Below are positions 2,332 through 54,347 of a stretch of DNA of 64,000 nt, piece after piece. The position numbers and the translations under genes are program-made. Numbering within the stretch: position 1 is the stretch's first letter; each line of letters starts with the position of its first letter. Source of the DNA: Oryzomonas sagensis. GTDB lineage: Bacteria; Desulfobacterota; Desulfuromonadia; Geobacterales; Pseudopelobacteraceae. The notes beneath the pieces are model-generated. The model did no database searches. It was given only the letters and a program-made list of their open reading frames with translations, and was not told where the DNA came from. The stretch lies in NCBI RefSeq assembly GCF_008802355.1, contig NZ_VZRA01000002.1, positions 529,642-593,641 on the forward strand, read 5' to 3'.

Positions 2332-3936
2332 ATGAAGTTGAGTCACAAGTTTTTTATCGCCAACGTAATTGTCGTTCTTTTAGCCGTCGCCGCCACGTCG
2401 TCGCTGGGTCTCTATGAGATGCGCAAGGAATTCATCCGCAAGGCTTCCGTGGACCTGGAGGCGCGCATGAAGACCTTCCACCAGCTGCTCAAATTCAAGG
2501 GGGCGGAACTGCGGGTGGCGGACGGCAAACTGAAGCAGGGCGATTATGTCATCAACGACAATTTTGAACTGCCGGACAGCATCAAGGACATCTTCGGCGG
2601 GGCCGCCACCATCTTCATGGGCGATGTCCGCGTCTCCACCAACGTCATGAAACCGGACGGCAGCCGCGCCGTGGGCACCAAGCTCCAAGGTCCGGCCTAT
2701 GATGCCGTCATCAAGGAGGGCAAGCCGTACCGCGGCGCGGCGCCCATCCTGGGGGTGCCGTATTTTACCGCCTATGACCCGTTGAAAAACGCCGCCGGCG
2801 AGGTGGTGGGCGTCCTCTACGTGGGAGAAAAGCAGAGCGAGTACCTTGCCGTCTATGACCGCCTGAAGTATGTCACCGCAGCTGTGGCCGCCCTGCTGGC
2901 CGGTTTGTTTTCCTTCCTCTCCTTCCTGTTTGTCCGCAGGGCGTTGCAGCCCTTGGGCCGGATGGTTGCCCTGATGCACGATATCGCCCAGGGGGAAGGG
3001 GACCTGACGGTCCGGCTGAACATCACGGCGAACGACGAGATCGGCGAGGCGGCCGGGTATTTCGACCGGTTTGTGGATAAGCTGCAGGCGGTCATACGCA
3101 AGGTGGCCGACAGCACCCACGATGTGGCTGCCGCATCCGCGGACCTGCACGATACCGCCACCCAGATCGCCACCGGCACCGAAGAGTTGGCCTCCCAGGC
3201 CGCTACCGTATCGACTTCGGGCGAGGAAATGGCCGCTACCTCCCACAATATTGCCGACAACTGCAATGCCGCTGCCGGCAACTCGCACCATGCAAGCACC
3301 CTCGCCACCAGCGGGGCCGGGATCGTCATGCAGACGGTCGAAGGGATGCAGAGGATCGCCGCCAGGGTTCAGGAAACGGCCCGCCAGGTCGCAGGGCTCG
3401 GCGCGCGCTCCGACGAGGTCGGCGCCATTGTTGGCACCATCGAAGAGATCGCCGACCAGACCAACCTGCTGGCGCTCAACGCCGCCATCGAGGCCGCCAG
3501 GGCCGGAGAGCAGGGACGCGGTTTTGCCGTTGTGGCAGATGAGGTGCGCGCCCTGGCCGAACGGACCACCCGCGCCACCAAAGAGATAGCCGGGATGATC
3601 CGGGCGATCCAGGGGGAGACCCGAACGGCGGTGGATTCAATGGAAGCCGGCGTACGGGAGGTGGAGGCGGGGACCACCGAGGCCGCGCGTTCGGGGAGCG
3701 CCTTGCAGGAAATCCTCGATCAGGTCAACGAGGTGACCGGCCAGATCAACCAGATCGCCACCGCGGCCGAGCAGCAGAGCTCAACCAGCAGTGAAATAAG
3801 CAACAACATGCACCAGATCACCGCGGTAATCAACGCCACGGCCCAATCGACCCACGACACCACCCGGGCCGCCGACAAGCTGGCTCACTTGGCTGATGAA
3901 CTGAGCAAGCTGGTCGGGCAGTTCAAGCTCTCCTGA
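2332..3936 (+). CDS. Methyl-accepting chemotaxis protein with single periplasmic Cache domain
   Basis: A 534-residue inner-membrane chemoreceptor that would signal to CheA/CheW. TM1 is near residues 8-28. A periplasmic single-Cache domain (about 35-180) follows, with the typical segment ending [14 protein letters not shown]2 is near 183-205 and is followed by HAMP. The cytoplasmic helical hairpin has its conserved tip at [19 protein letters not shown], about residues 375-395. The start at 2332 is chosen over an upstream in-frame start because GAGGA lies seven bases before it and the signal-anchor helix begins immediately. The ligand cannot be read from sequence; Cache domains of this type often bind small organic acids. 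Followed by a strong terminator, so probably monocistronic. Confidence 0.93.
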
Positions 3937-4459: not shown

Positions 4460-4753
4460 AATAGTATTGTCTGACACAGTCGGGAGGCGGCACGAAGAGG
4501 GGGGAGATGACAAGAAGGCTGGCCGGGGGGCGGTTTTGGGGTCAGGGATTTCATCCGCTCCGGCTTGGTGCAGCGCGCGGGTATGAAAAAATAGCGGTTG
4601 TGGAGTGAAGGCGCAGGATAAAAATTGACTACGAAGCGCTTCTGGGGGAATAATGACTAGCCGCACTCTATGGATTCATTGCGCTCGATCGACGGCCTTT
4701 TTTTCCCATGGTATCCTCCTTGTCCGGTAACCCATAGTTCGGGATGAACGCCA

Positions 4754-42750: not shown

Positions 42751-42786
42751 ATGACATCCCACACCGGTACGAGGAATCTTCTATGA
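42751..42786 (+). CDS. 11-codon leader ORF coupled to the operon start
   Basis: ATG after GGAGGGGGAAGGG encodes MTSHTGTRNLL and stops with TGA overlapping the ATG of the next gene (ATGA). The ribosome site is stronger than that of the gene itself, so it may set translation of the operon by coupling. It could also be a chance frame. Confidence 0.35.
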   Translation: MTSHTGTRNLL

Positions 42787-44024
42787 CCATAACCGCCAGC
42801 GCCGGCTTGCTCGACGCGACCCTCAACCATATCCTCACCGGCCACCCGGAAACCCTTCCGGTCTTCGCCGACGCCGGCCTGGGCATGGTCGCGGACGAAG
42901 GGCTCCGGGCCTCTTTCGGCACGGTGGTGACCCTGCGCACCCTGCTCAAGGCGCGGGATCTCAACGCCGTTCTGTTCTGCCGGCGCCTGGACGAGGCGAT
43001 TGGTGAGGCCGCCCGTACGGCGCGCAGACAGCCCGCCCCGACCGCGGCGGGCTCCCCCCTCAATCTGTTCGCCCTGCTCCCCTGTCCGCTCAAGGTTCCC
43101 CTGGAGGAGGCCTTCGAGGCGTACCTGGACACCCTCCTCCCCGAGGTGCGGGCCTCCTTCACCTACTGCCTGGAGGGAAACGCCAACCACGACGTGGATT
43201 ACTACGCCCTGGTGGAACACTTCGAGTCCATCGACGATATGCCGGACATCATCGTCACCCCCGGTTTCAACAGTTTCTTCCATCGACCGTTCGTGGAGCG
43301 CTTCATCAAGCCGGGCCTGTTCACCAGCGTCTCCACCTTTGCCGGCGACCGCCATCTGGCGCGCTTGGGGGTGCTCGATCCCCAGGGACAGTACACCATG
43401 CTGGCCATGAACCTGCTGGTGATGGTGGTCGATCATGCCCGTCTCGGCGACCGGCCCGTTCCCGCAACCTGGCGGGACCTGCTGGATGCGGCATACCGCA
43501 AGAGCGTCGCCATCCGCGGCAACCACGACGGCTCCTTCTGCGAGACCCTGTTGTTGACGATCCACAAGGAGTTCGGCCTGGACGGGGTGTTTCGCCTGGG
43601 GGAGAACGTCCGCTACGGCTGGCACCCCTCCCAGATGGTCAAGGCCGCAGCCAGCGGCGGTGCGGACGCACCTGCCATCAGCGCCATGCCCTATTTCTTC
43701 GCCCGGCATCTGCACGGGAGGAAGGGGGTCAGCATCGTCTGGCCCGCCGACGGCGCCCTGGTCAGCCCGGTGACCATGCTGGTCAAGACCGGCAAGCGGG
43801 AGGCGCTGCAGCCGCTGATCGATTTTTTCGCCGGGCCGAAGGCAGCCGCAATCTGCGCCGAAGCCGCGTTCCCGGCGGTCCATCCCGCCGTGGACAACCG
43901 CCTGCCGGACGATGCCGTGTTCAAGTGGGTCGGCTGGGAGTATGTGAAAAACCATGACATCAAGGCCATGCTGGCGGAGATCAACGCGACCTTCCGCCAT
44001 GGCTTCGCCGGGGGCGGGGTATGA
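42783..44024 (+). CDS. DUF1858-like plus solute-binding-like protein lacking a signal peptide
   Basis: 413 residues. The N-terminal 75 residues (ITASAGLLDATLNHILTGHP and following) resemble the DUF1858 helical domain. The rest resembles a type-2 periplasmic binding protein (PDIIVTPGFNSFFHRPFVER, then AISAMPYFFARHLHGRKGVS), but no signal peptide or lipobox exists, so it is probably cytoplasmic. GAGGA precedes ATG. It overlaps the GTPase gene by four bases (ATGA) and starts the three-gene operon. It may bind a metal chelate or cofactor intermediate; function is unknown. Confidence 0.8.
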   Translation: MTITASAGLLDATLNHILTGHPETLPVFADAGLGMVADEGLRASFGTVVTLRTLLKARDLNAVLFCRRLDEAIGEAARTARRQPAPTAAGSPLNLFALLPCPLKVPLEEAFEAYLDTLLPEVRASFTYCLEGNANHDVDYYALVEHFESIDDMPDIIVTPGFNSFFHRPFVERFIKPGLFTSVSTFAGDRHLARLGVLDPQGQYTMLAMNLLVMVVDHARLGDRPVPATWRDLLDAAYRKSVAIRGNHDGSFCETLLLTIHKEFGLDGVFRLGENVRYGWHPSQMVKAAASGGADAPAISAMPYFFARHLHGRKGVSIVWPADGALVSPVTMLVKTGKREALQPLIDFFAGPKAAAICAEAAFPAVHPAVDNRLPDDAVFKWVGWEYVKNHDIKAMLAEINATFRHGFAGGGV

Positions 44025-44707
44025 GGCTCGTCACCGTGGCCGGGCCGCCGTCGTCGGGCAAGACCTCCGTGATCATCAAGGCGGCCGAGGCGCTCGTGGG
44101 GGAGGGGATCACGGTGGGGGTCGTCAAGTTCGACTGCCTCTCCACCGGCGACCAGGCCCTGTACGAGCGCCGGGGCATCGCGGCGAAGACCGGCCTGTCC
44201 GGCAACCTCTGTCCCGACCATTTCTTTGTCAGCAATATCCAGGAGTGCCTGCACTGGGGCGAGCAGAGCGGCTTCGACCTGCTGATCTCCGAGAGCGCCG
44301 GTCTCTGCAACCGCTGTGCGCCTCACATCAAGGACGTGTGTGCGGTCTGCGTGATCGACAATCTGAGCGGGGTGGAGACGCCGCGCAAGATCGGGCCGAT
44401 GCTCAAGATGGCGGACATCGTGGTGGTCACCAAGGGGGACATCGTCTCCCAGGCCGAACGGGAGGTGTTCGCCTACCGGGTGCGCCAGGTCAATCCGGGG
44501 GCGGTCATCATCAACGTCAACGGCCTCACCGGCCAGGGGGGATACGAACTGGGGCGGCTGTTGTCCGCCGCAGAGGAAACGGTCTCCCTCACCGGCAGGC
44601 TGCTGCGCTTCACCATGCCCGCGGCGCTCTGCTCCTACTGCCTCGGCCAGCGCCGCATCGGCAGCGATTACCAGATGGGCAACGTCAGAAAGATGGATTT
44701 TTCGTAA
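44021..44707 (+). CDS. HypB/UreG-like SIMIBI-class GTPase
   Basis: 228 residues. Walker A is AGPPSSGKTSVI (about 7-18), Walker B is LLISESAGLCNRC (about 88-100), and the base-specificity motif is VVTKGD. Several cysteines are grouped in metal-binding style: GLCNRCAP with VCAVC shortly after, and CSYCLGQ near the C terminus. HypB, UreG and CooC relatives use GTP or ATP to insert nickel or other metals into enzymes, so a metal-insertion or cofactor-delivery role is likely. The target is unknown. It overlaps the gene before and lies nine bases before the ABC ATPase gene. Confidence 0.85.
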   Translation: MRLVTVAGPPSSGKTSVIIKAAEALVGEGITVGVVKFDCLSTGDQALYERRGIAAKTGLSGNLCPDHFFVSNIQECLHWGEQSGFDLLISESAGLCNRCAPHIKDVCAVCVIDNLSGVETPRKIGPMLKMADIVVVTKGDIVSQAEREVFAYRVRQVNPGAVIINVNGLTGQGGYELGRLLSAAEETVSLTGRLLRFTMPAALCSYCLGQRRIGSDYQMGNVRKMDFS

Positions 44708-44716
44708 AGGGGATTT

Positions 44717-45733
44717 ATGGACACCGGTAACGAGACACCATCCTACAGCGCCATGCCGAGCGGGGAACTGCTGCGCAACTACCCCTGTGCCGAGGATTTT
44801 TTCACCGCCATGGGGCTGGCGCTGCCGCCGGCCGGTGAGTCGGTGGACGCCTATTTCGGGCGCATGACGCCCGATACGCTGGAAGAGCTGGGGGTGGAAC
44901 GCCGGGAGTTGGGGGAGCGGTTCGACGCCTTCATGGCCCTCTTGGTTTCGCTCCGGGAAAAGCACACCGGCCCGACCATCGATTCCATCACGATCCAGGG
45001 TGGCGTGGACAAGAGCGGCGCCGCCGAAGGGTTCGTGCTGACCGTCGCGCCGGGGGAGGTGCTCGCCATCGTCGGCCCGACCGGCTCCGGCAAGAGCCGT
45101 TTCCTGGCCGACATCGAATGGATGGCCCAGGGGGACACGCCCACCAGGCGCCGGGTGCTGATCAACGGGGCCGTGCCCGACCCGTCCCGCCGTTTTTCCC
45201 TGGAGCACAAGCTGGTGGCCCAGCTCTCCCAGAACATGAACTTCGTCATGGACCTGAGCGTGGAGGAGTTTATCGCCATGCACGCCGAGAGTCGCCTGGT
45301 GAACGACGTGGCCGGGATTACCCGCACCGTCATCGCAAAGGCCAACGAACTGGCCGGTGAGCAATTCTCGCCCCGGACCCCGGTCACGGCTCTGTCAGGC
45401 GGCCAATCGCGGGCGCTGATGATCGCCGACACCTCCTGCCTCAGTACCTCGCCCATCGTGCTCATCGATGAGATCGAAAACGCCGGCATCGACCGCAAAC
45501 GGGCGGTGCGGACCCTGGTGGACGAACGGAAGATCGTACTCATGGCCACCCACGACCCGATCCTGGCCCTCATGGGGGACCGGCGTTTGGTGTTCAAGAA
45601 CGGCGGCGTACGTGCGGTCATCGCCACCACGCCGGCTGAACGGGCCAACATGGCCGCCTTCGAGGAGATGGACGCCCGTTTGACCGCCGTGCGCAACGCG
45701 TTGCGCAACGGGGAGCTGATCGAGCATGTCTGA
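44717..45733 (+). CDS. Lone ABC-type ATPase with DUF1858-like N terminus
   Basis: 338 residues. The N-terminal 80 residues (LLRNYPCAEDFFTAMGLALP...) resemble the helical DUF1858/DUF542-type domain of the first operon protein. The ABC domain follows: Walker A GPTGSGKSRF (about 116-125), signature LSGGQSRALMIAD, Walker B IVLIDEIENAGIDR. The Asp-Glu and the H-loop (ATHDP) are intact, so it should hydrolyse ATP. No membrane permease is encoded nearby, so it is probably not a transporter component but a soluble energy-coupling protein. Confidence 0.85.
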   Translation: MDTGNETPSYSAMPSGELLRNYPCAEDFFTAMGLALPPAGESVDAYFGRMTPDTLEELGVERRELGERFDAFMALLVSLREKHTGPTIDSITIQGGVDKSGAAEGFVLTVAPGEVLAIVGPTGSGKSRFLADIEWMAQGDTPTRRRVLINGAVPDPSRRFSLEHKLVAQLSQNMNFVMDLSVEEFIAMHAESRLVNDVAGITRTVIAKANELAGEQFSPRTPVTALSGGQSRALMIADTSCLSTSPIVLIDEIENAGIDRKRAVRTLVDERKIVLMATHDPILALMGDRRLVFKNGGVRAVIATTPAERANMAAFEEMDARLTAVRNALRNGELIEHV

Positions 45734-45844
45734 TCGCTGTCGTCGGGCTTGATCATGACCGGCCGGGGCGGGGCGCGCATTGTGCCGGATTATGCGACGC
45801 CTTCCCCCCGCCCCGCGCCCCGTGGCGTACCATCTGCGGGCGTT

Positions 45845-46156
45845 TCAGCAGCTCTCCTCCTCGATTTTTTCCAAAAGTTCCAAAGCATCCTGGTCGTCGT
45901 AGGTCTCGAAGAGCTCCCTGATGTTATTGATATACGAGTGGATCAGGAACAGCTCGTCGAGGCAGCGGCCGCTGGTCTTGTCCGGCGCTCCCACGCTGTC
46001 CAGCTTTTCCTTGAACTTCTCCCAGAACGGATTGGTCCGTTCCGGGTCGTCGATATGCCGCCGCAGCATCGCCATCAGCACCCGGGAATTCTCGTCGCCG
46101 TTGATGCCGATAAAGGATACGTAGCGGTCCGGCTTTGCTGCTGTTGTTGCCTCCAT
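45845..46156 (-). CDS. cowN: N2-fixation sustaining protein CowN
   Basis: 103 residues. Matches the CowN family along its length: [60 protein letters not shown]. CowN binds Mo-nitrogenase and protects it from inhibition by carbon monoxide. AAAGGA precedes ATG. It converges on the three-gene operon. Its presence implies that the organism carries a nitrogenase, which is not in this window. Confidence 0.92.
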
Positions 46157-46227
46157 AAATTCATCCTTTCAGATGTAGTGTTTCCGATCCGGAATGGAGG
46201 GCTTTTTTGTCCAGGCAAGGAAATCAA

Positions 46228-46272
46228 GGGATTGCGCGGAGGCGTACTACTGTACGCCGCACAAGCAATCCC
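46228..46272. repeat. REP-like double hairpin
   Basis: Outer arms GGGATTGC and GCAATCCC enclose an inner hairpin GGCGTAC-TACT-GTACGCC. It lies between cowN and the FKBP gene. The sequence style is that of dispersed intergenic palindromes in Geobacteraceae; it may also act as a terminator or RNA-stability element for the FKBP transcript. Confidence 0.5.
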
Positions 46273-46319
46273 GAAGATTGACGCCGCATGGGCGAAAAAG
46301 AACCCTTTCCGGACGGAAA

Positions 46320-46748
46320 CTATTCGATGGCATCCAGCCGCAGGGCAAAGGTCAGGTCCAGCCCGGCCAGAGGGTGGTTGCCGTCCAGGGTTACCTCGGT
46401 CTCGGTGATCCCGGCGATCTGCATGACCCGTTCCCCGCCTCCCGAAAAGCCGATGCTGAGTTTTTGACCAACTATGATCTCTTTTTCAGCGGGGAAATGG
46501 GCCCGGTCCACCCGGAGGATGTTCTCGGGCACCCGCGGCCCATAGGCCTCGGCGGCCGGAATGAGGATATTGACCGTCTCTCCTACGGCCATGCCGACCA
46601 CGGCCCGTTCCAGGGCCGGAAAGACCTGATCCCGGCCGATGGTGAAGACGAGCGGCTCCTCGTCCGGGGTGCTGTGGAAGATGCGGCCGTTGTCGAGGGT
46701 CCCGATGTAGTGGACCGTTACGGTGCTGCCCTGTTGTGCCTGTGCCAT
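46320..46748 (-). CDS. FKBP-type peptidyl-prolyl isomerase, SlpA/SlyD-like
   Basis: 142 residues. The FKBP core starts GSTVTVHYIGTLDNGRIFHST, followed by the insert-in-flap domain (YGPRVPENI) and ends NHPLAGLDLTFALRL. The metal-binding His-rich tail of SlyD is absent, so it is closer to SlpA/FkpB. It would act as a cytoplasmic folding catalyst and chaperone. The start MAQAQQ has AAGGAG upstream; an N-terminal extension by 48 codons is not supported. Stands alone between cowN and the NifX-like gene. Confidence 0.92.
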   Translation of the reverse strand: MAQAQQGSTVTVHYIGTLDNGRIFHSTPDEEPLVFTIGRDQVFPALERAVVGMAVGETVNILIPAAEAYGPRVPENILRVDRAHFPAEKEIIVGQKLSIGFSGGGERVMQIAGITETEVTLDGNHPLAGLDLTFALRLDAIE

Positions 46749-46912
46749 GTTGCGTCTCCTTGCAAGCGGGTGCTCAGCTGTTGTTGCATATGATTCTATG
46801 CAACATGTCGGCCGAGATGCCTTTTGAATACGGTTTCTTCGACGACGCCCCTGGCGCCGTGCGGACAGCAAGGCTGCCCTATAATGGGGCATGTACGCGG
46901 GACTTGACTATT

Positions 46913-46936
46913 CGTTATGCAGCATATAATATGCCG
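46913..46936 (+). promoter_or_regulatory. ModE-operator-like site 1
   Basis: CGTTATG-N10-TATGCCG. Compared with CGTTATA-N10-TATAACG, the spacing is exact and about 11-12 of 14 half-site bases fit. It lies in the promoter region of the NifX-like gene at 47309. Confidence 0.4.
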
Positions 46937-47002
46937 CCCGTCGTTTTGTTTGCATAACTATATGAATTAATAATGTAATTATGCTTCAATGATTTTGGCA
47001 TG

Positions 47003-47026
47003 TGTTATGTATTTATCTATATAGCG
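47003..47026 (-). promoter_or_regulatory. ModE-operator-like site 2
   Basis: On the minus strand CGCTATA-N10-CATAACA. The spacing of 10 and 11-12 of 14 half-site bases match the known CGTTATA-N10-(T/C)ATAACG form. Centred 90 bases from site 1. Confidence 0.45.
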
Positions 47027-47308
47027 CCCGAAGGTGTTGCGAGCGAGAATGGCTATATTCCGCCGCAACGTGATTCGGGTGCCGGTAAGGCGACAGGGAG
47101 GTCGCGCGCGGCGCCCGTTGGTGTGCGCTGCCATTGGTGGATGCGGTAACGGCGTTGCCATGGATGAATGGAGCGCCTCTTTCCGAATATGCACGATGTA
47201 CCATGCTCACCGTGTCTGCGTGGGCACACGGGAAATGCACGCGCGGCCGGTGGCAAACTGCGGCACTGCGGGGGCGCCGGCGGCGTAAGGCCTTGGAAGG
47301 GAGACAGT

Positions 47309-47686
47309 ATGAAGGTCGCTTTCACCACCTCGACCGGCGTCGAGGTCGATCTGAATTTCCGCACATCCACCAGTTTCACCGTCTGGGACGTGAGGCCGGA
47401 CGAGGCGTACTACGTAACAACGGTACGGATCACAGACGATGCGGGGTGCGAGGATGACAGGATCGCCATCCGCGTCAAAGCGCTCAGCGGATGCTCCATC
47501 GTGTGCGCCCGGGAGATCAATGGCCCGGCGGCGGCCAAGCTGGCGGCCGGGGGCATCCACCCTCTGAAGGCCGGCGTGGCCACCCCCGTGGAGGAGATCA
47601 TCGGCAGGTTGAAGAACGTGCTGCGGGGGGCCCCGGCACCCTGGATTCGCAAGGCGCAGATAGGGAACGACTTTGTTGCGGGGTGA
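47309..47686 (+). CDS. NifX/NafY-family nitrogenase cofactor-binding protein
   Basis: 125 residues forming one dinitrogenase iron-molybdenum cofactor-binding domain (NifX, NafY and NifB C-terminal fold). Visible signatures are MKVAFTTSTGVEVDLNFRTS, the redox-like Cys pair in LSGCSIVCAREINGPAAAKL and the end HPLKAGVATPVEEIIGRL. It would carry NifB-co or FeMo-co between NifB, NifEN and nitrogenase. AAGGGAG precedes ATG. No nif structural genes lie in the window. It lies 189 bases before the porin gene with a terminator between. Confidence 0.88.
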   Translation: MKVAFTTSTGVEVDLNFRTSTSFTVWDVRPDEAYYVTTVRITDDAGCEDDRIAIRVKALSGCSIVCAREINGPAAAKLAAGGIHPLKAGVATPVEEIIGRLKNVLRGAPAPWIRKAQIGNDFVAG

Positions 47687-47775
47687 CATACCCGCTCAGG
47701 GGCGTTTTCCCAAGGATTACGTTGACCTGTACGCACGCCGTACAAGGCTCACTTTGTGGGCCTCCTTCATGTGGT

Positions 47776-47799
47776 GGGGGGAGCGATCCCCCCTTTTTT
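47776..47799 (+). terminator. Intrinsic terminator after the NifX-like gene
   Basis: A 6-bp G/C stem (GGGGGG-AGCGAT-CCCCCC) is followed by six T residues, about 90 bases after the stop codon and before the porin gene. Confidence 0.75.
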
Positions 47800-47874
47800 C
47801 ATGCAGGGGCGGCGGGCGCATTTCGCGGGATGAATGGCGCGCCCCCGGGCGCGTATAAAACAAAGGAGGTTGGT

Positions 47875-49191
47875 ATGAAAAGGTTGGGAATTTTGTTGGG
47901 GGTTGCCCTGATCGCGGCCCAGGCCGGCACGGCTTCGGCACGGAGTCTGGAGGATGTGCTGAAGGAAAAGGGGGTCATCACCGAGGAGGATTACAAGGAA
48001 ATCCAGAAGAGCAGCCCGATCAAGTACAAGTTGGGCGAAGGGTTCAACTTTACCTCGGCCGACGGGAAGTTCAGCACCTCCATCGGCGGTGTGTATCAGC
48101 TCCGCTACACCCTGATGGATCTGGATGATGCCAACAACACCGCCGCCAAGCAGGCCCAGGATTCCAGCAAATTCGAGTTGCGGCGCATCAAGCTGGTTGC
48201 CAACGGCTATGCCTATTCCCCGGACCTGACCTACAAGATGACGATCAACTTCGCCAACATCGCCGGCGGCACCACCAGCAACGGCGGTCTTCTGGAAGAG
48301 ACCTACGTGAACTACCGCCTGCTGAACGAGGTGCAGTTCCGTTTCGGCCAGGACAAGGTCCAGTTCGGCCGCCAGTGGATCACCTCCTCCGCGGCGCAGC
48401 AGTTCGTGGACGCCTCGGCGGTGACCAACGCCTTCGTGCCCGGGTATGACACCGGGGTGATGATCCACGGCAAGATCGCCGGCGGACTCGTCAACTACAA
48501 CATCGCCGGCTACGGCGGGGTAGGGCAGAACACCTACCGCAGCACCACGGACAACGCCTTTGCGGCGCGCCTCACCGTCAACCCCCTGGGCGACGTGAAA
48601 TACACCGAATCCGACGTGGAGTACAGCAAGAGCCCGCTGGTCTCCGTGGGCGCCGACTTCTACCGGAACACCCTGAGCGCCACCGAAGTCAATACCACCA
48701 ACACCGCCACCGGCAACAACCTCAGCTTTGCCAAGAGCACCAGCTGGTACGGGCTTGGCAAGGGCCTCCTGCCCGCGGCCAGGGCGTTCAGCGCCGGCGA
48801 GGCGCTGGACTTCAACATGGCCAGCGTGGATGCGGCCTTCAAATGGCGCGGCTTCTCGGCCACGGGCGAGTACTTCTTCGCCGAGGCCGACGGCCAGACG
48901 ACCAGCCACAAGCTGCGCGGTCAGGGCTTCTACGCCCAGGCCGGCTACTTCGTGATCCCGAAGAAGGTGGAGGTGGCCTACCGCTATTCCTACATCGACC
49001 CGAACCGCGACGCGGTGAACGACCTGTGGGTTGAGAACACCGGTGCGGTGTCGTGGTACGTGAACAACCAAAACCTGAAGGTCCAGGCGGACTACACCAA
49101 TGTCCACAAGCAGGCGGCCATCGCCTCCACAAGCGGCAAGAACGTCACCGACGATCAGCAGGTGCGTTTCCAGGTCCAGATGCTGTTCTGA
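47875..49191 (+). CDS. OprO/OprP-type outer-membrane porin
   Basis: 438 residues. A signal peptide (cleaved near GTASA) precedes a short helical segment (LEDVLKEKGVITEEDYKEI) seen in deltaproteobacterial porins, and then a 16-strand-type barrel with alternating aromatic and polar residues ending QVRFQVQMLF. It belongs to the phosphate-selective porin O/P family. The perfect AAAGGAGG site supports the start. Its place between a NifX-like gene and modE suggests that molybdate or another oxyanion is the substrate; that is inference. Confidence 0.9.
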   Translation: MKRLGILLGVALIAAQAGTASARSLEDVLKEKGVITEEDYKEIQKSSPIKYKLGEGFNFTSADGKFSTSIGGVYQLRYTLMDLDDANNTAAKQAQDSSKFELRRIKLVANGYAYSPDLTYKMTINFANIAGGTTSNGGLLEETYVNYRLLNEVQFRFGQDKVQFGRQWITSSAAQQFVDASAVTNAFVPGYDTGVMIHGKIAGGLVNYNIAGYGGVGQNTYRSTTDNAFAARLTVNPLGDVKYTESDVEYSKSPLVSVGADFYRNTLSATEVNTTNTATGNNLSFAKSTSWYGLGKGLLPAARAFSAGEALDFNMASVDAAFKWRGFSATGEYFFAEADGQTTSHKLRGQGFYAQAGYFVIPKKVEVAYRYSYIDPNRDAVNDLWVENTGAVSWYVNNQNLKVQADYTNVHKQAAIASTSGKNVTDDQQVRFQVQMLF

Positions 49192-49212
49192 TTCAACTCA
49201 TCGGGAATACAT

Positions 49213-49250
49213 CCGGCAGGCTGCGCCACGTTCGGCAGCCTGCCGGGCTG
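49213..49250 (+). terminator. Intrinsic terminator of the porin gene
   Basis: A perfect 12-bp stem (CCGGCAGGCTGC with GCAGCCTGCCGG), 10-base loop, followed by a weak T/A-rich tail, 21 bases after the stop. Confidence 0.7.
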
Positions 49251-49267
49251 AATTTATAGTAATGCGC

Positions 49268-49295
49268 TTTACATGGGTGGTGATCCCGGTATAAT
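49268..49295 (+). promoter_or_regulatory. modE: Sigma-70 promoter of modE
   Basis: TTTACA (-35) and TATAAT (-10) are separated by 16 bases, 68 bases before the modE start codon. The -10 matches the consensus fully. Confidence 0.65.
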
Positions 49296-49363
49296 TTTAA
49301 CCAATAGGGCACGAAATTCCGTGCCGGTCGCCGCGAGTTTTTTGCGCACAGGGGTATCGTGTT

Positions 49364-50179
49364 ATGAAATGTTCACAGGAAGGTGCCAAGCTGGAGCTCT
49401 CCGGGGCCGTCTGGCTGAACAAGGAAGACCGGAAGTTCCTGGGGGGCGACCGGATCAGTCTGCTGGAGCAGATCGGCGAGCTGGGCTCGATCACCAAGGC
49501 TGCGAAGGCGGTCGGCGTCAGCTACAAAACCGCCTGGGACCTGGTGAACATGATCAACAACCTGGCCGACAAGCCCTTGGTCGATCGTTTGACCGGGGGC
49601 AAGGGCGGGGGAGGGACCACCCTCACCGCCGAGGGGAAGAAGGTCCTGCGGGAGTTTCAGATCATCCAGGAAGAGCATCGCAAGTTTTTGGGCAATATCG
49701 CCGAGAAACTGGGCGATGCCGACAGCCTGTACCAACTACTGAGGAGGATTGCCATGAAAGTCAGCGCGCGTAACGTATTTGCCGGAACCGTGGCCAGGAT
49801 CGTCAAGGGTGCGGTCAATGCCGAGGTCGACCTGACCCTCAAGGGGGGAGCCACCATCGCGGCTGTCGTCACCAACGGCGCCGTCGATAACCTGGGATTG
49901 GCGGTGGGGAAAGAGGCCTATGCCATCATCAAGGCCAGTTCGGTCATCGTCGGCATCGATCTGCACGATGCCAAGCTCAGCGCCCGGAACCTGATGTGCG
50001 GCACGGTCGCCAAGGTCATCGAGGGGCCGGTCAGCGCCGAGGTGGATGTGGAAGTGGGGGGCGGCAACACCGTCAGCGCCGTCATCACCCATGAGAGCAG
50101 CAGAAACCTGGGCCTGACCGTGGGCGGCCATGCCTGTGTCATCTTCAAGGCCTCCAGCGTCATCATTGGCGTGAGTTGA
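49364..50179 (+). CDS. modE: Molybdate-responsive regulator ModE with two Mop domains
   Basis: 271 residues. An N-terminal LysR-like winged helix (about 20-115, recognition helix region ITKAAKAVGVSYKTAWDL) precedes two tandem Mop/TOBE molybdate-binding domains, each starting with SARN (about 130-195 and 203-268). Molybdate-bound ModE dimers normally repress molybdate uptake genes and activate molybdoenzyme genes. A clear operator lies upstream of modD. The GC content and RBS (AGGGG) are ordinary. It has its own promoter and terminates or reads through into the modD region. Confidence 0.95.
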   Translation: MKCSQEGAKLELSGAVWLNKEDRKFLGGDRISLLEQIGELGSITKAAKAVGVSYKTAWDLVNMINNLADKPLVDRLTGGKGGGGTTLTAEGKKVLREFQIIQEEHRKFLGNIAEKLGDADSLYQLLRRIAMKVSARNVFAGTVARIVKGAVNAEVDLTLKGGATIAAVVTNGAVDNLGLAVGKEAYAIIKASSVIVGIDLHDAKLSARNLMCGTVAKVIEGPVSAEVDVEVGGGNTVSAVITHESSRNLGLTVGGHACVIFKASSVIIGVS

Positions 50180-50241
50180 GCCGTACGCCGCAAGGAATAT
50201 CCACGAGGGGCATCAACGGCGCTGCCCCTTTTTTGTGCATT

Positions 50242-50267
50242 CCGTTATATTTTAAGCACTATAACGG
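50242..50267 (+). promoter_or_regulatory. ModE operator upstream of modD
   Basis: CCGTTATA-N10-TATAACGG is a perfect 8-bp inverted repeat with the spacing of the E. coli modA operator. It lies 20 bases before the modD start and should repress modD-modABC when molybdate is plentiful. Confidence 0.85.
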
Positions 50268-50286
50268 ACAAACGAAGGAGGACGCC

Positions 50287-51141
50287 ATGCTTGCCTGTCT
50301 GTCTGACGGGGAGATCGAACGTTTTTTGGAAGAGGATCTTCCCTATGGCGATTTGACCACCCATGTGCTCGGCATCGGCCACCAGCCGGGCACCATCGCC
50401 TTTGCCACCCGCGAGGACACGACCCTCTGCTGCACCGAGGAGGCGGGCCGGGTGCTGGAAAAATGCGGCTGCCGCATTTCGACCCTGGAGCCGAGCGGGA
50501 CGCGCTGTGCCCCCGGCACGGTCTTTCTGGCCGCCGCAGGAACGGCACAGGCCCTGCATGCCGGTTGGAAGGTCGCCCTGAACCTGTTGGAGTACGCCTC
50601 GGGCATCGCCTCCCGGACCGCCAGGATCGTCCGGGCCGCCCGAGAGGTAAATCCGGGCGTCGTCGTGGTGACCACCCGCAAGTCCTTTCCCGGCACCAAA
50701 AAGATCGCCATCAAAGCCATCTGCGCCGGCGGGGCGCTGCCCCATCGCCTGGGGCTGTCGGAAACCGTGCTGGTATTCAAGCAGCACACCGCCTTTCTGG
50801 GGGGGCTGGATGCGTTTCTGGCGGGTATTGCCGATCTGCGGGCCGGGGCGCCGGAAAACCGGATCATCGTCGAGGCGGAGAACGCCGCGGAGGCGCTACG
50901 CATTGCCGGGGCCGGGGTGGATGTGGTCCAGGTGGACAAGCTGCCGCCCGCCGAGTTGCGGCACCTGGTGGCGGATGTGCGCACCAGGGGGCGGCAGGTG
51001 AAAATCTCCGCGGCAGGCGGCATCAACGAGGGAAACGTGGCGGAATATGCCGCCACCGGTGTGGACATCATCGTCCTCTCGTCGGTCTACTTCGGCAAGC
51101 CTGCGGATATCGGCGTCCAACTGGTTCCCCGTGGGGAGTGA
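50287..51141 (+). CDS. modD: ModD, NadC-like molybdenum-uptake-associated protein
   Basis: 284 residues. A paralog of quinolinate phosphoribosyltransferase: the segments EEDLPYGDLTTHVLG, then ASGIASRTARIVRAAREVNP and TTRKSFPGTKKIAIKA match. The active-site Arg and Lys pattern of NadC is only partly kept. ModD genes accompany mod operons in many bacteria; the reaction is not established. GGAGG precedes ATG and the ModE operator lies immediately upstream. It begins the modDABC transcript, 67 bases before modA. Confidence 0.9.
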   Translation: MLACLSDGEIERFLEEDLPYGDLTTHVLGIGHQPGTIAFATREDTTLCCTEEAGRVLEKCGCRISTLEPSGTRCAPGTVFLAAAGTAQALHAGWKVALNLLEYASGIASRTARIVRAAREVNPGVVVVTTRKSFPGTKKIAIKAICAGGALPHRLGLSETVLVFKQHTAFLGGLDAFLAGIADLRAGAPENRIIVEAENAAEALRIAGAGVDVVQVDKLPPAELRHLVADVRTRGRQVKISAAGGINEGNVAEYAATGVDIIVLSSVYFGKPADIGVQLVPRGE

Positions 51142-51208
51142 AGGAACATCGTTACGCTCTGCGGGGCTGAAATTACTACAACACTAACGTCTTTATACGG
51201 AGATCATC

Positions 51209-51955
51209 ATGAATCGAATCGTATCTACCCTGGTTGTCGCACTGGCCTGTCTGCTGCCCGTAACCGCCCTGGCCGGCGAGATCAACCTGTTTGTGGCGGC
51301 CAGCATGCGGGAGGTTGTCAATGAGTTGTCCGCCGACTTTGCCATGAAGAACAGCGGCGTGACCTTCAAGAAAAACTACGGCGCCTCCGGTGCCCTGGCC
51401 AAGCAGATCGAGAACGGCGCTCCGGCGGATATCTTCATCTCGGCCAACGTGGAGTGGATGGATTACATGAAGAAAAAGAAACTGGCCGACGACAGGAGCG
51501 TTGCCACCTTTGCCTACAATTCCCTGGTGTTCGCCGGTCGGCCGGGAGTGAAGGCCGCCAGCCTGCATGACGTGACCAAGTTGGAGAAGATCGCCATCGG
51601 CAGCCCCAAGAGCGTGCCGGCCGGGGAATACGCCACCGAGGCCTTCCGGAAGGCCGAGATCGACAAGCAGCTGGAGAAGAAGCTGGTCATGGCCAAGGAC
51701 GTGCGCGAGTGCCTGCTGTACGCCGACCGGGGCGAGGTCGACGGCGCCTTCGTTTATAAAACCGACGCCCTGCAGGTGGCCAAGAGCGCCAAGATCCTGT
51801 TCACGGTGCCCCAGCAGTACTACCCGCGGGTTACCTACCCCATGGCCCTGACCGTGACCGGCGGCAAGAAGGCCGAGGCCGCAGGTTTCTATCGGTTCCT
51901 GCAGTCTGCAGAGGCTAAGGCCGTCCTTGCCAAACACGGCTTTCTCGTGAAATAG
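51209..51955 (+). CDS. modA: Molybdate ABC transporter, periplasmic binding protein
   Basis: 248 residues with a signal peptide (cleaved near ALAGE). The ModA signatures FVAASMREVVNEL, then NYGASGALAKQIENGAPADIF and the anion-binding Ser/Asp/Tyr residues are present. It captures molybdate or tungstate in the periplasm and hands it to ModB. GGAGAT precedes ATG. Eight bases separate it from modB. Confidence 0.95.
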   Translation: MNRIVSTLVVALACLLPVTALAGEINLFVAASMREVVNELSADFAMKNSGVTFKKNYGASGALAKQIENGAPADIFISANVEWMDYMKKKKLADDRSVATFAYNSLVFAGRPGVKAASLHDVTKLEKIAIGSPKSVPAGEYATEAFRKAEIDKQLEKKLVMAKDVRECLLYADRGEVDGAFVYKTDALQVAKSAKILFTVPQQYYPRVTYPMALTVTGGKKAEAAGFYRFLQSAEAKAVLAKHGFLVK

Positions 51956-51963
51956 GGTACGGC

Positions 51964-52650
51964 ATGCCGATTTTTACCTCCGCCGAATATATGGCCATCC
52001 TGCTGTCGCTCAAGGTGTCGGTCGTGGCGACGCTGGTATCGCTCCCCTTCGGTTTTGCGGTCGCCTATCTCATGACCTACCGGCGGTTCCGGGGGAGGGT
52101 CGCGCTGGACGTGGCGGTCAATCTCCCCCTGACCCTGCCGCCGGTGGTGATAGGGTATATCCTGTTGCTGCTCCTGGGGCAGAAGGGTTTTATCGGGCAG
52201 CATCTGTTGCAGCCGCTCGGCATCACGCTGATTTTCACGTGGAAGGCCGCGGTCATCGCCACGGCCGTGGTCGGCTTTCCCCTCATGGTCCGGTCGATCC
52301 GCCTGGGCATGGAAAGCGTTGACGAACGGCTCATCCAGGCCGCCCGCACCCTGGGCGCCGGATGGCTCGACACCATTGTGACCGTGATCATCCCGCTCTC
52401 GTTCCGCGGGATCGTTGCCGGGTCGGCGCTCATGTTCGCCCGCGGCCTGGGGGAGTTCGGGGCGACCATCGTGGTGGCCGGCAATATCCCCGGCGTGACC
52501 CAGACCATTCCCCTGGCCATCTACGAGTACACCAGTTCCCCCGACGGCGATCGCATGGCCCTGGCCCTGTGCCTGGTGTCGATCCTCCTCTCGGTGGTCG
52601 TGCTCCTGCTCCACGAATATCTCAACCGCCGCATCGCCAAGGCCGACTGA
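51964..52650 (+). CDS. modB: Molybdate ABC transporter, permease
   Basis: 228 residues with about five or six transmembrane helices. It carries the EAA-type loop for ModC contact (EAARTLGAGWLDTIVTVIIP) and the family segment LPPVVIGYILLLLLG. It transports molybdate across the inner membrane. The stop lies one base before the modC ATG. Confidence 0.95.
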   Translation: MPIFTSAEYMAILLSLKVSVVATLVSLPFGFAVAYLMTYRRFRGRVALDVAVNLPLTLPPVVIGYILLLLLGQKGFIGQHLLQPLGITLIFTWKAAVIATAVVGFPLMVRSIRLGMESVDERLIQAARTLGAGWLDTIVTVIIPLSFRGIVAGSALMFARGLGEFGATIVVAGNIPGVTQTIPLAIYEYTSSPDGDRMALALCLVSILLSVVVLLLHEYLNRRIAKAD

Positions 52651-52651
52651 C

Positions 52652-53707
52652 ATGGAACTACGCGTTACCCTGAACAAGAACTTCGAAACCTTTTCCCTGG
52701 ATATGGCCTTCACGGTCCAGGGGGAGCGCATCGGCGTCTTCGGACCGTCGGGATGCGGGAAGTCTACGCTGGTGAGCCTGCTGGCCGGATTGCAGCAACC
52801 GGACAGCGGCAGCATCAGCCTGGACGGGGAGGTGCTCTACGACAGCCACGGCGGTATCAACGCCCCCCCCGAGCAGCGCCGCATCGGCATCGTCTTCCAG
52901 CGCCCCTACCTGTTCCCCCACATGAGCGTCAAGGCAAACCTCCTGTACGGTTTCAAGCGGTGCGCCGCGGCGCACCGCACGGTGGATTTCGACAGCCTGG
53001 TGGCGGTGTTGCAGATAGGCCACCTGTTGTCCCGCAGCGTGCACAACCTCTCGGGGGGCGAGAAGCAACGCGTCGGCATCGGCCGGACGATGCTCTCCAA
53101 TCCCCGCCTGCTGTTGATGGATGAACCGTTGTCGGCCTTGGACGACAATCTCAAATTCCAGATCATCGATTACCTGAAGGCGGCCAGCGAGACGTTCCGT
53201 ATCCCCTATATCTTTATTTCCCACTCGCTCCTGGAGATGCGCATCATGACGGACCGGGTACTCGCGGTGAGTGCGGGGCGCATCGCCGCCCAGGCAACGG
53301 CCGAGGATCTGGCCCGCTCCCAGATGGGGCGGAGCCCGGTCGGCTACATCAATCTCCTGAGGCTGGACAATCCGCGCAGGATCAATGGCGTATCCGCCTA
53401 TGGATGGGGCGGGACCGAGCTGTTGATCTCCACCGTCGGCGACCGGCCGGAGGCGCTGTTCGAACTCTCCTCCAAGGACATCATCCTGCTCAAACAGCAC
53501 CCGGACGCCATCAGCGCCAGAAATCTGCTCGAATGTAGTGTTGCGGACACCTTCCTCTCCGGCAACAAGGTCGGGGTGGAGTTGACCTGCGGCGACGGCA
53601 AGCTCGTGGCCGAGGTCGTACCGGAGGCCGCCCGGGAGTTGGGTATCGAACGGGGCAGCAGGCTCTTCGCGGCCATCAAGGCCTCGGCGTTTCGCCGGCT
53701 CGAATGA
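52652..53707 (+). CDS. modC: Molybdate ABC transporter, ATPase with C-terminal Mop/TOBE domain
   Basis: 351 residues. Walker A is FGPSGCGKSTL (about 31-41), the signature is LSGGEKQRVGIGRTM, and Walker B is LLLMDEPLSALDD, with H-loop ISHSL. A C-terminal TOBE/Mop domain (SARNLLECSVADTFL to the end) probably senses molybdate and regulates uptake. Last gene of modDABC; no clear terminator follows before tRNA-Thr. Confidence 0.95.
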   Translation: MELRVTLNKNFETFSLDMAFTVQGERIGVFGPSGCGKSTLVSLLAGLQQPDSGSISLDGEVLYDSHGGINAPPEQRRIGIVFQRPYLFPHMSVKANLLYGFKRCAAAHRTVDFDSLVAVLQIGHLLSRSVHNLSGGEKQRVGIGRTMLSNPRLLLMDEPLSALDDNLKFQIIDYLKAASETFRIPYIFISHSLLEMRIMTDRVLAVSAGRIAAQATAEDLARSQMGRSPVGYINLLRLDNPRRINGVSAYGWGGTELLISTVGDRPEALFELSSKDIILLKQHPDAISARNLLECSVADTFLSGNKVGVELTCGDGKLVAEVVPEAARELGIERGSRLFAAIKASAFRRLE

Positions 53708-53844
53708 TTATCCCGCAAGTAGGGATTGACAGTCGCCCTTGTTTTAAGGTAATTTACCCAGCGCTGAAGCGTTGACGGATTGATTTGTAGCGAAAAACAC
53801 CCAGCAAACCCGCATCAAATAACGCTTTACATGGTTAATTGATT

Positions 53845-53920
53845 GCCATCTTAGCTCAGTTGGTAGAGCAATTGATTCGTAATCAATAGGTCGCCGGTTC
53901 GATTCCGGCAGATGGCTCCA
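53845..53920 (+). tRNA. tRNA-Thr (CGT)
   Basis: A 76-base cloverleaf with encoded CCA. Acceptor GCCATCT/AGATGGC with discriminator T, anticodon stem ATTGA/TCAAT with loop TTCGTAA (anticodon CGT, reading ACG), T arm GCCGG-TTCGATT-CCGGC. A terminator follows. Confidence 0.95.
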
Positions 53921-53930
53921 CCCAGTATAG

Positions 53931-53970
53931 ACAGGCACTCCCGTGATACGGCGAGTGCCTGTTGCATAAA
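53931..53970 (+). terminator. Hairpin after tRNA-Thr
   Basis: A perfect 10-bp stem ACAGGCACTC/GAGTGCCTGT with 12-base loop, then TGCATAAAAA. The T-tract is poor, so it may be a processing hairpin rather than a strong terminator. Confidence 0.55.
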
Positions 53971-53999
53971 AACACAATGAATGGGCTGAGGTCGTTTGT

Positions 54000-54347
54000 A
54001 TGGTAAAATGCCGGTTGCTTTCGTTTGCGCTCGTCGTCTGCCCGCTCTGGGCGGTAAGCGTCCATGCCGATGAGGCGCGCCCCAAGTCTCAAGCCCAGGC
54101 CCGTATCGGCAAAAAGGTCGTCTATCCCGCTTCCCGGGGCGATGTGGTGTTCGATCACGATATGCATGTGGATGAACTCAAGGGGGAATCGTGCGCCCCC
54201 TGCCATCGCAAGGACGGCCCCATGGGCAAGGATACCCTGGCCCGCTTCGATTCCCGTATTGCCCACTATTTTTGCAAAGGATGCCATCGGGAGCGGGGGC
54301 GGGGCCCAACTGAGTGTCACGGGTGTCACAAGGGCCCGACAAAATAG
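54000..54347 (+). CDS. Periplasmic triheme c-type cytochrome (c7/c3-like)
   Basis: 115 residues with a signal peptide (cleaved near VHADE). Three heme-binding motifs, CAPCH, CKGCH and CHGCH, are clustered in the C-terminal half, and additional histidines (FDHDMHVDE and IAHYF) can serve as second ligands. The layout matches the c7/class III cytochromes of Geobacteraceae that shuttle electrons in the periplasm. GAGG precedes ATG. It stands between tRNA-Thr and the translation operon. Confidence 0.88.
   Translation: MVKCRLLSFALVVCPLWAVSVHADEARPKSQAQARIGKKVVYPASRGDVVFDHDMHVDELKGESCAPCHRKDGPMGKDTLARFDSRIAHYFCKGCHRERGRGPTECHGCHKGPTK

Follow-up and report, generated by a model that had tools for sequence, protein, structure and literature searches.

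A conserved pair of ModE-like operators before a NifX-family gene of Oryzomonas sagensis: a predicted molybdate-responsive switch

The DNA upstream of nifX2, a NifX-family gene in the molybdate-transport locus of Oryzomonas sagensis, is probably a molybdate-responsive repression switch, in which the regulator ModE would act on two paired operators, the distal one already decaying, and in which the gene product, a NifX relative without the cofactor-binding histidine, could serve as a placeholder or brake. Four elements of this picture were computed: the sites themselves, the overlap of one of them with a conserved promoter-like sequence, the conservation of both the sites and their spacing, and the missing histidine.

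The analysis covers a stretch of 64 kb, hereafter the window, in which cowN and a gene for an FKBP-type prolyl isomerase lie on the minus strand and are followed on the plus strand by nifX2, a Porin_O_P porin gene, modE, modD and modABC (Table 1). Both ModE-like sites fall within the 560-bp gap between the FKBP gene and nifX2. The ModE encoded here is of the full-length type, with an HTH and Mop domains: its two Mop stretches score 146.1 bits, and the HTH model gave 97.1 bits in one search, just below the cut-off of 98.5, and 99.0 bits in a second one, above that cut-off. A search for a leader riboswitch, in the form of an Rfam scan of 44000-54000, gave only a tRNA above the gathering score. 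A coding reading of the leader ORF at 47034-47288 is unsupported, the counterpart in the congener G051 being the leader and the start of nifH2.

Table 1. Coordinates of the features in and around the nifX2 upstream region (window numbering).
Feature	Position	Strand	Basis
cowN	45845-46156	minus	
FKBP-type prolyl isomerase, divergent, first gene of FKBP-cowN	46320..46748	-	domain match
sigma54-like -24/-12 element CGGCCG-N5-TTGCA for FKBP-cowN; kept in five aligned loci	46799..46814	-	by eye
Promoter-like TTGACT-N17-TAATAT overlapping site 1; may be incidental	46904..46932	+	consensus promoter scan
Site 1: distal (auxiliary) ModE-like operator, right half degraded here	46913..46936	+	pattern match, matrix, congener dyads
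58-bp spacer between sites 1 and 2	46937..46994	.	spacer comparison
Weak copy of the third motif ATTnCAGnnTGTTAC, 8/12 specified positions (own count)	46954..46968	-	spacer motif search
sigma70-like promoter TTGGCA-N17-TATATA of nifX2; predicted start near 47030	46995..47023	+	conservation
Site 2: proximal ModE operator (predicted) over promoter spacer and -10 box	47003..47026	+	matrix, profile, conservation
Leader of nifX2	47027..47308	+	47059-47183 homologous to leader of intact nifH2 in G051
nifX2: NifX-family paralogue, Asn16 replacing the cofactor-binding His	47309..47686	+	profile matches, tree, alignment
Terminator-like hairpin, then TTTTTT, downstream of nifX2	47776..47793	+	
Porin_O_P outer-membrane porin gene	47875..49191	+	domain match
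modE promoter-like TTTACA-N16-TATAAT, without ModE site	49268..49295	+	promoter scan, matrix
modE: HTH and two Mop/TOBE domains	49364..50179	+	domain matches
ModE operator of modD-modABC (reference site)	50243..50266	+	matrix, profile

The original prediction, made from the letters of this region, had described two ModE-like sites with the half-site spacing of the modD operator and with centres 90 bases apart, and both statements are confirmed: site 1 (CGTTATG-N10-TATGCCG, plus strand), site 2 (CGCTATA-N10-CATAACA, read on the minus strand) and the modD operator, which we place at 50243-50266, share one half-site spacing, and the two centres measure 90.0 bp apart. Simple counting of mismatches is of no help in judging these sites. 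With up to three mismatches allowed, 12 matches occur on the two strands of the window, 7.8 +/- 3.3 being expected, and in the genome a first pattern gave 6 matches at up to one mismatch against 5 for its reversed control, while a looser one gave 9 places at one mismatch against 13. Mismatch counting fails to separate either site from background and was dropped as evidence; the case for the sites rests on conservation and pairing. The published 28-base consensus of the E. coli type is likewise too blunt to decide, since in the window it gives site 2 a shared first place (14/20, as for 30015) and leaves the modD operator and site 1 in a group of four at 13.

Weighted scoring does set site 2 apart. 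A matrix built from eight operators of modD and modE promoters, the window's own modD operator included, gave 31.3 bits to the modD operator, 27.6 to site 2, 18.2 to site 1 and 12.8 to the next place in the window. Because this matrix, like the profile R1, contains sites from a pattern derived from site 2, it is mildly circular, and the ranking was repeated with four modD operators only; site 2 was still second (21.9) and site 1 fourth (13.2), under a place at 46942 (15.6). When the 560-bp intergenic region was shuffled 4000 times with its dinucleotides kept and scored with the eight-operator matrix, one site as good as site 1 turned up in 10 shuffles and two such sites in none. In the genome-wide dyad scan proposed along with the sites, mismatch counts did no better than the reversed control; a profile run over the whole genome (3.6 Mb, E <= 10) reported, among the 150 of 342 first-look candidates that were scored, only site 2 and the modD operator, the latter a member of its training set. 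Both sites are one mismatch away from a dyad of the CGNTATA-N10-YATAACG type, but site 1 is weak by matrix and profile (profile E 1.6-1.9 with the window searched alone); it is degraded in this genome and would be weak alone.

Alignment of the gap with those of four congeners recovers site 2 in all five loci and site 1 in four of them, counting the degraded copy of the window. At the position of site 1 the congeners read CGTTATG-N10-CATAACG (L006), CGTTATG-N10-TATAACG (L007) and CGTTATG-N10-TATAGCG (L075r), so that a full dyad exists in three of the four congeners having nifX2, the site being lost in the fourth (L074, from G051). In a further congener, G053, where no nifX2 was found, the distal dyad is kept and the proximal one is poor. 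Together with the dyad of site 2, the hexamers TTGGCA and TATATA and the 17 bp between them are kept in all five aligned loci; TTGGCA stands before site 2 and TATATA 17 bp further on, and the dyad therefore covers the spacer and the -10 box of a sigma70-like promoter. Our consensus promoter scan does not list TTGGCA-N17-TATATA because it demands a T at the end of the -10 hexamer. The other promoter-like sequence, TTGACT-N17-TAATAT, was not evident by eye in the contexts of the other distal sites looked at. A sigma54 reading of TTGGCATG was rejected: the GC expected at -12 is GT at the places seen, and the search pattern itself had asked for TATGTA. With site 2 over promoter-like sequence, both sites conserved and modE starting 2.3 kb downstream of the operator pair, the proposal that this gene is a direct target of ModE is well supported.

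Pairs of this kind extend far beyond the genus. Among 141 genomes of the order, and with any spacing from 70 to 100 bp allowed, a pair was found in 12 genomes from three families and six genera, and all 12 pairs have their sites 89, 90 or 91 bp apart (4, 6 and 2 cases). The same 141 genomes gave no pair when 101-131 bp were allowed, and a single match, odd and partial, in G056 when 39-69 bp were. The pattern required just the left half of the proximal dyad, and the right half is poor in three of the 12 (L167, L169 and L175, the last from G053); the window's own pair is outside the 12 because its distal half is degraded. All 13 spacers compared, that of the window among them, measure 57-59 nt, and their sequences have mostly diverged, though 15 of 78 comparisons exceed the 95th percentile of shuffled spacers by our own count, and the highest likeness values (0.62, 0.64) belong to close relatives. 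As the spacers keep some likeness, common descent explains part of this constancy; were the spacing free, six genera each falling on three out of 31 values would have a chance of about 8e-7, a figure to be read with the proviso that the promoters may share one ancestor. The fixed spacing, kept by spacers of largely different sequence, favours one putative two-site complex, for example a short loop. The looping guessed at in the original prediction thus gains support from the spacing of 89-91 bp in three families, and the loop itself is something we still infer.

Promoter and dyad together make up a composite element that occurs at 24 places in 20 of the 76 family genomes and has no match in the control. 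Judged by eye from translations at 20 of these places, the genes behind it include modE, porins, nifH2, nifX2, modA and methyltransferase-like genes; in some relatives a similar porin lies, again by eye, directly behind the same paired or single operator. A match to the ModE HTH at E <= 1e-19, a cut-off that takes in G004 at 2.6e-20, is present in 19 of the 20 genomes with the element and in 25 of the 56 without it (Fisher p 5e-5), the sole element-bearing genome without a match, G007, being 74% complete. Ten of the 24 places have a distal dyad 88-91 bp upstream, whereas 12 have no upstream site of at least 12 bits within 400 bp, L160 has a weak one at 98 bp only, and in G056 the distance to the second site is 70 bp. 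A pair is not required in every case, as site 1 is weak here and lost in G051. In G056 (L076, 7455-14465) the pair at 70 bp precedes nifX2, which is followed by genes for a TonB receptor plug protein, for a CCP_MauG protein and for a product matching a molybdopterin-binding oxidoreductase domain.

The same data could be accommodated by another arrangement, a possibility we rate low without neglecting it: both sites would bind ModE, and the distal one, near -105, would contact RNA polymerase or a third protein seated at a motif in mid-spacer, giving activation or dual control with no loop. A contact of this kind would agree with a single spacing value (89-91 bp) in place of several helical turns, and also with a third motif, ATTnCAGnnTGTTAC, that recurs near two offsets in the spacers. 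This motif was found in the spacers of L140, L141, L143, L145-L147, L155, L164, L165, L167 and L169, in forward orientation near -29 or in reverse orientation near -41, counted from the -35 box, the two positions being rough mirror images about the spacer centre. Its information was 9.7-10.6 bits in six runs and 7.8-8.3 in six shuffled sets, each of the latter being the best of two shorter runs whose lengths were unequal to those of the real set; two of 29 promoters (L144, L148) had been dropped before the search. Yet a proximal dyad over the -10 box is in the position of a repressor, and half of the promoter class has no distal site, both of which speak against this arrangement.

The second half of the proposed switch concerns the protein. 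NifX2 belongs to PF02579 (Nitro_FeMo-Co), with 48.9 bits against a gathering score of 26.3, and misses the NifX equivalog TIGR02663, with 97.6 bits against a cut-off of 112. The label of nitrogenase cofactor gene that was first attached to it does not hold in that form, for it is a NifX-family paralogue without the cofactor-binding His and below the equivalog cut-off; going by sequence, it is not NifX proper. The NifX2 of L006 is 96% identical to that of the window and stands in the same gene order. In a tree of 52 rows (10 of 62 had been dropped beforehand, and some of those remaining are one gene fetched twice), NifX2 groups in a ten-member clade (98/94), and the ordinary NifX of the genomes concerned lies outside it; the tree carries a long-branch warning for L079, L009, L008 and L091, the exact placement of which is unsure. 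The His of the DxHFG motif is absent in all 10 clade members, with N in nine and D in one. Outside the clade, the AnfG-linked rows L090 and L091 also do without it (R and K) and 49 other rows all have it, once the single D among 50 other rows, L052, is set aside as a duplicate fetch of the NifX2 of G073. Asn16 of NifX2 aligns with residue 35 (H35) of Azotobacter vinelandii NifX (9ian chain E), a residue that binds NifB-co according to an excerpt of PMC13128457; the same excerpt considers that His-less relatives of NifX may be placeholders or antagonists. In five species, ten pairs compared, the dN/dS of NifX2 is 0.40 for the closest pair and 0.09-0.18 for the other nine, and by these ratios the protein is under purifying selection.

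ModE sites lie near nine of the 10 members of this clade, the exception being L077 (G056), with no site of 17 bits within its 18 kb, and no site of at least 17 bits occurs in 17 kb around the ordinary nifX (G000:C1:948409) or in 3.9 kb around nifH (G000:C1:1011436) of the window's genome. The PF02579 fold includes molybdenum-binding relatives such as the orange protein, and NifX2 could be a molybdenum-handling protein of the uptake regulon and not a brake on cofactor assembly, which we regard as rather doubtful, if worth keeping in view. Such a role would suit its place in a mod locus with a porin, and the overlap of its frame with modA in G031 (L009: NifX2 at 2702-3094, modA frame from 3082), but sits less well with other loci, where it is linked to nifH2 and, in the case of G073, also to an Fe-nitrogenase cluster that has a NifA-like gene and draT.

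The distal site also calls for a look at the genes on its other side. It is unlikely, in our judgement, that site 1 belongs to the divergent FKBP-cowN unit and that two single-operator promoters simply stand back to back here, even with the FKBP start 165 bp from site 1 and a conserved sigma54-like element before it. Pairs with the same spacing exist where the upstream gene is co-directional, namely in L170 (an ABC gene of G031) and, by eye, in L168 (an ABC gene) and L171 (nifH); as the upstream gene is not divergent in these three, the distal site there serves no divergent gene. An inverted repeat, TGCC-N9-GGCA, is visible at 46875-46891 on the minus side, some 90 bp upstream of the expected FKBP-cowN start, and is possibly an enhancer-binding site.

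As for the history of the locus, an intact nifH paralogue lies between the promoter and nifX2 in G051, and a decayed C-terminal piece of nifH, with a stop, is at this place in G052 (E 5e-14). The window leader at 47059-47183 matches the nifH2 leader of G051 (73.6%, 125 nt, E 4e-15), and the body of nifH is missing here; for the nifH N-terminus there is no significant protein match in the window and L006, though the leader DNA matches. Intact nifH2 genes lie elsewhere in the locus in L006 and G052, and in G073 (L079, 7342-11190) a ModE site, nifH2, nifX2, a NifA-like activator and draT follow one another next to anfDGKO. In the window's genome, then, a nifH2-nifX2 unit under ModE control was probably cut down to nifX2 alone. 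The data do not establish that nifX2 descends from a local Fe-nitrogenase operon: nifH2 belongs to the Mo type, with values of 81-88% against the other Mo-type NifH copies and of 62-65% against those beside AnfG. In G027 (L168/L143) a NifX2-like C-terminal remnant is seen by eye between a double operator and modA, which suggests that nifX2 was lost there and the operators kept.

Another reading is that the nifX2 promoter survives from an alternative-nitrogenase or nifH2 operon now lost, its sites decaying and without present function. This would fit the degraded site 1, the loss of the nifH body and the result of a search for AnfG/VnfG, which gave no match in the window's genome (G000) and matches in five of 76 family genomes, four of them over the cut-off. 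We think it improbable, however, because nifX2 is intact and under purifying selection in five species, and because site 2 is the second-best ModE site reported for the genome among the 150 of 342 candidates scored. That both sites match by chance in an AT-rich intergenic stretch, as the mismatch counts taken by themselves would allow, is very hard to believe in the face of the matrix and profile rankings, the shuffles, the conservation and the spacing.

Under the repression switch that we favour, ModE binding, the direction of control, looping and the function of NifX2 are all predictions, and the sequence of events would be as follows. When molybdate is plentiful, ModE from the nearby gene would bind the proximal operator and, lying on the promoter spacer and -10 box, would keep RNA polymerase off nifX2. 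A second ModE dimer would bind the distal operator 90 bp upstream, at a fixed phase, and the two sites would act as a unit, most simply through a short DNA loop that strengthens repression; in the window's genome the distal site would have begun to decay. When molybdate is scarce, ModE would leave and nifX2 would be made, probably transcribed alone since a terminator-like hairpin follows it. NifX2 may then dock as NifX or NifY do, without carrying NifB-co, and serve as placeholder or brake of cofactor assembly for as long as molybdenum is lacking.

Much more tentatively, this could be generalised to the order: ModE may form a rigid two-operator complex, probably a loop of about 8.6 turns, at promoters of molybdenum starvation (modE, modA, porins, nifX2), and a His-less NifX may slow or park FeMo-cofactor assembly when molybdenum is scarce. 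If true, a cooperative mode constrained by spacing would be added to a well-studied molybdate regulator, and the assembly of nitrogenase cofactor would be coupled directly to the supply of molybdenum, in a bacterium where no alternative nitrogenase was detected. Moreover, with its condition of expression known, the role of His-less NifX as placeholder or antagonist would become testable.

Several known systems bear comparison with this arrangement. In loops of the lac O1-O3 type the main operator lies over the promoter and an auxiliary operator some 90 bp upstream, a layout shared by the region described here; LacI is a tetramer, whereas ModE is known as a dimer. The abstract of PMC5081198 mentions short loops of 6-8 turns. 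In our literature searches, which are weak because ‘ModE’ also matches ‘mode’, we found neither a precedent for a looping ModE nor a description of paired ModE operators or of a NifX under ModE control. With the ModE-modABC systems of E. coli type and the modDABC of Geobacter sulfurreducens, the region has in common the dyad, the half-site spacing, a full-length ModE nearby and the control of molybdate transport. It differs from them in that the target is a NifX-family gene, in that the two operators are fixed 90 bp apart, and in that the proximal one is fused with TTGGCA-N17-TATATA. For G. sulfurreducens, a ModE site before modDABC is predicted in Table 6 of PMC545781, and PMC2700814 predicts further sites, given in a supplementary table.

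Control of alternative nitrogenases by ModE is established, and ModE regulators repress the molybdenum-free enzymes; in Rhodobacter capsulatus the ModE proteins MopA and MopB repress anfA, which is read with the housekeeping sigma factor (as given in an excerpt of PMC7294313). The common point with our locus would be molybdate repression of a nitrogen-fixation gene through a ModE-type regulator, here predicted; the difference is that the gene is a His-less NifX paralogue in a genome without detected AnfG/VnfG. As regards the protein, NifX, NifY and NafX of Azotobacter share the NifX-like domain, and NifY and NafX also lack the cofactor-binding His in what an excerpt of PMC13128457 reports, whereas NifX2 is a single-domain protein, apparently under ModE control, that is encoded in a mod locus and forms the clade of its own noted above.

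Other features were noted around these loci. At 42783-45733 of the window there is a cluster of three genes, for an SBP_bac_6 protein (with a sub-threshold DUF1858 match), a GTPase of the CobW/HypB type and an ABC ATPase, which adjoins the nifX2/mod loci in L006, L074, L075, G031 and G073; in the L007 stretch it was not observed. The cluster is preceded by a ModE-like dyad of 21.5 bits in L074 and by a weaker one in L006. Beyond the ABC gene, L074 (G051) also has two strong ModE dyads, of 30.2 and 29.9 bits, at 4524-4734 and 187 bp apart.
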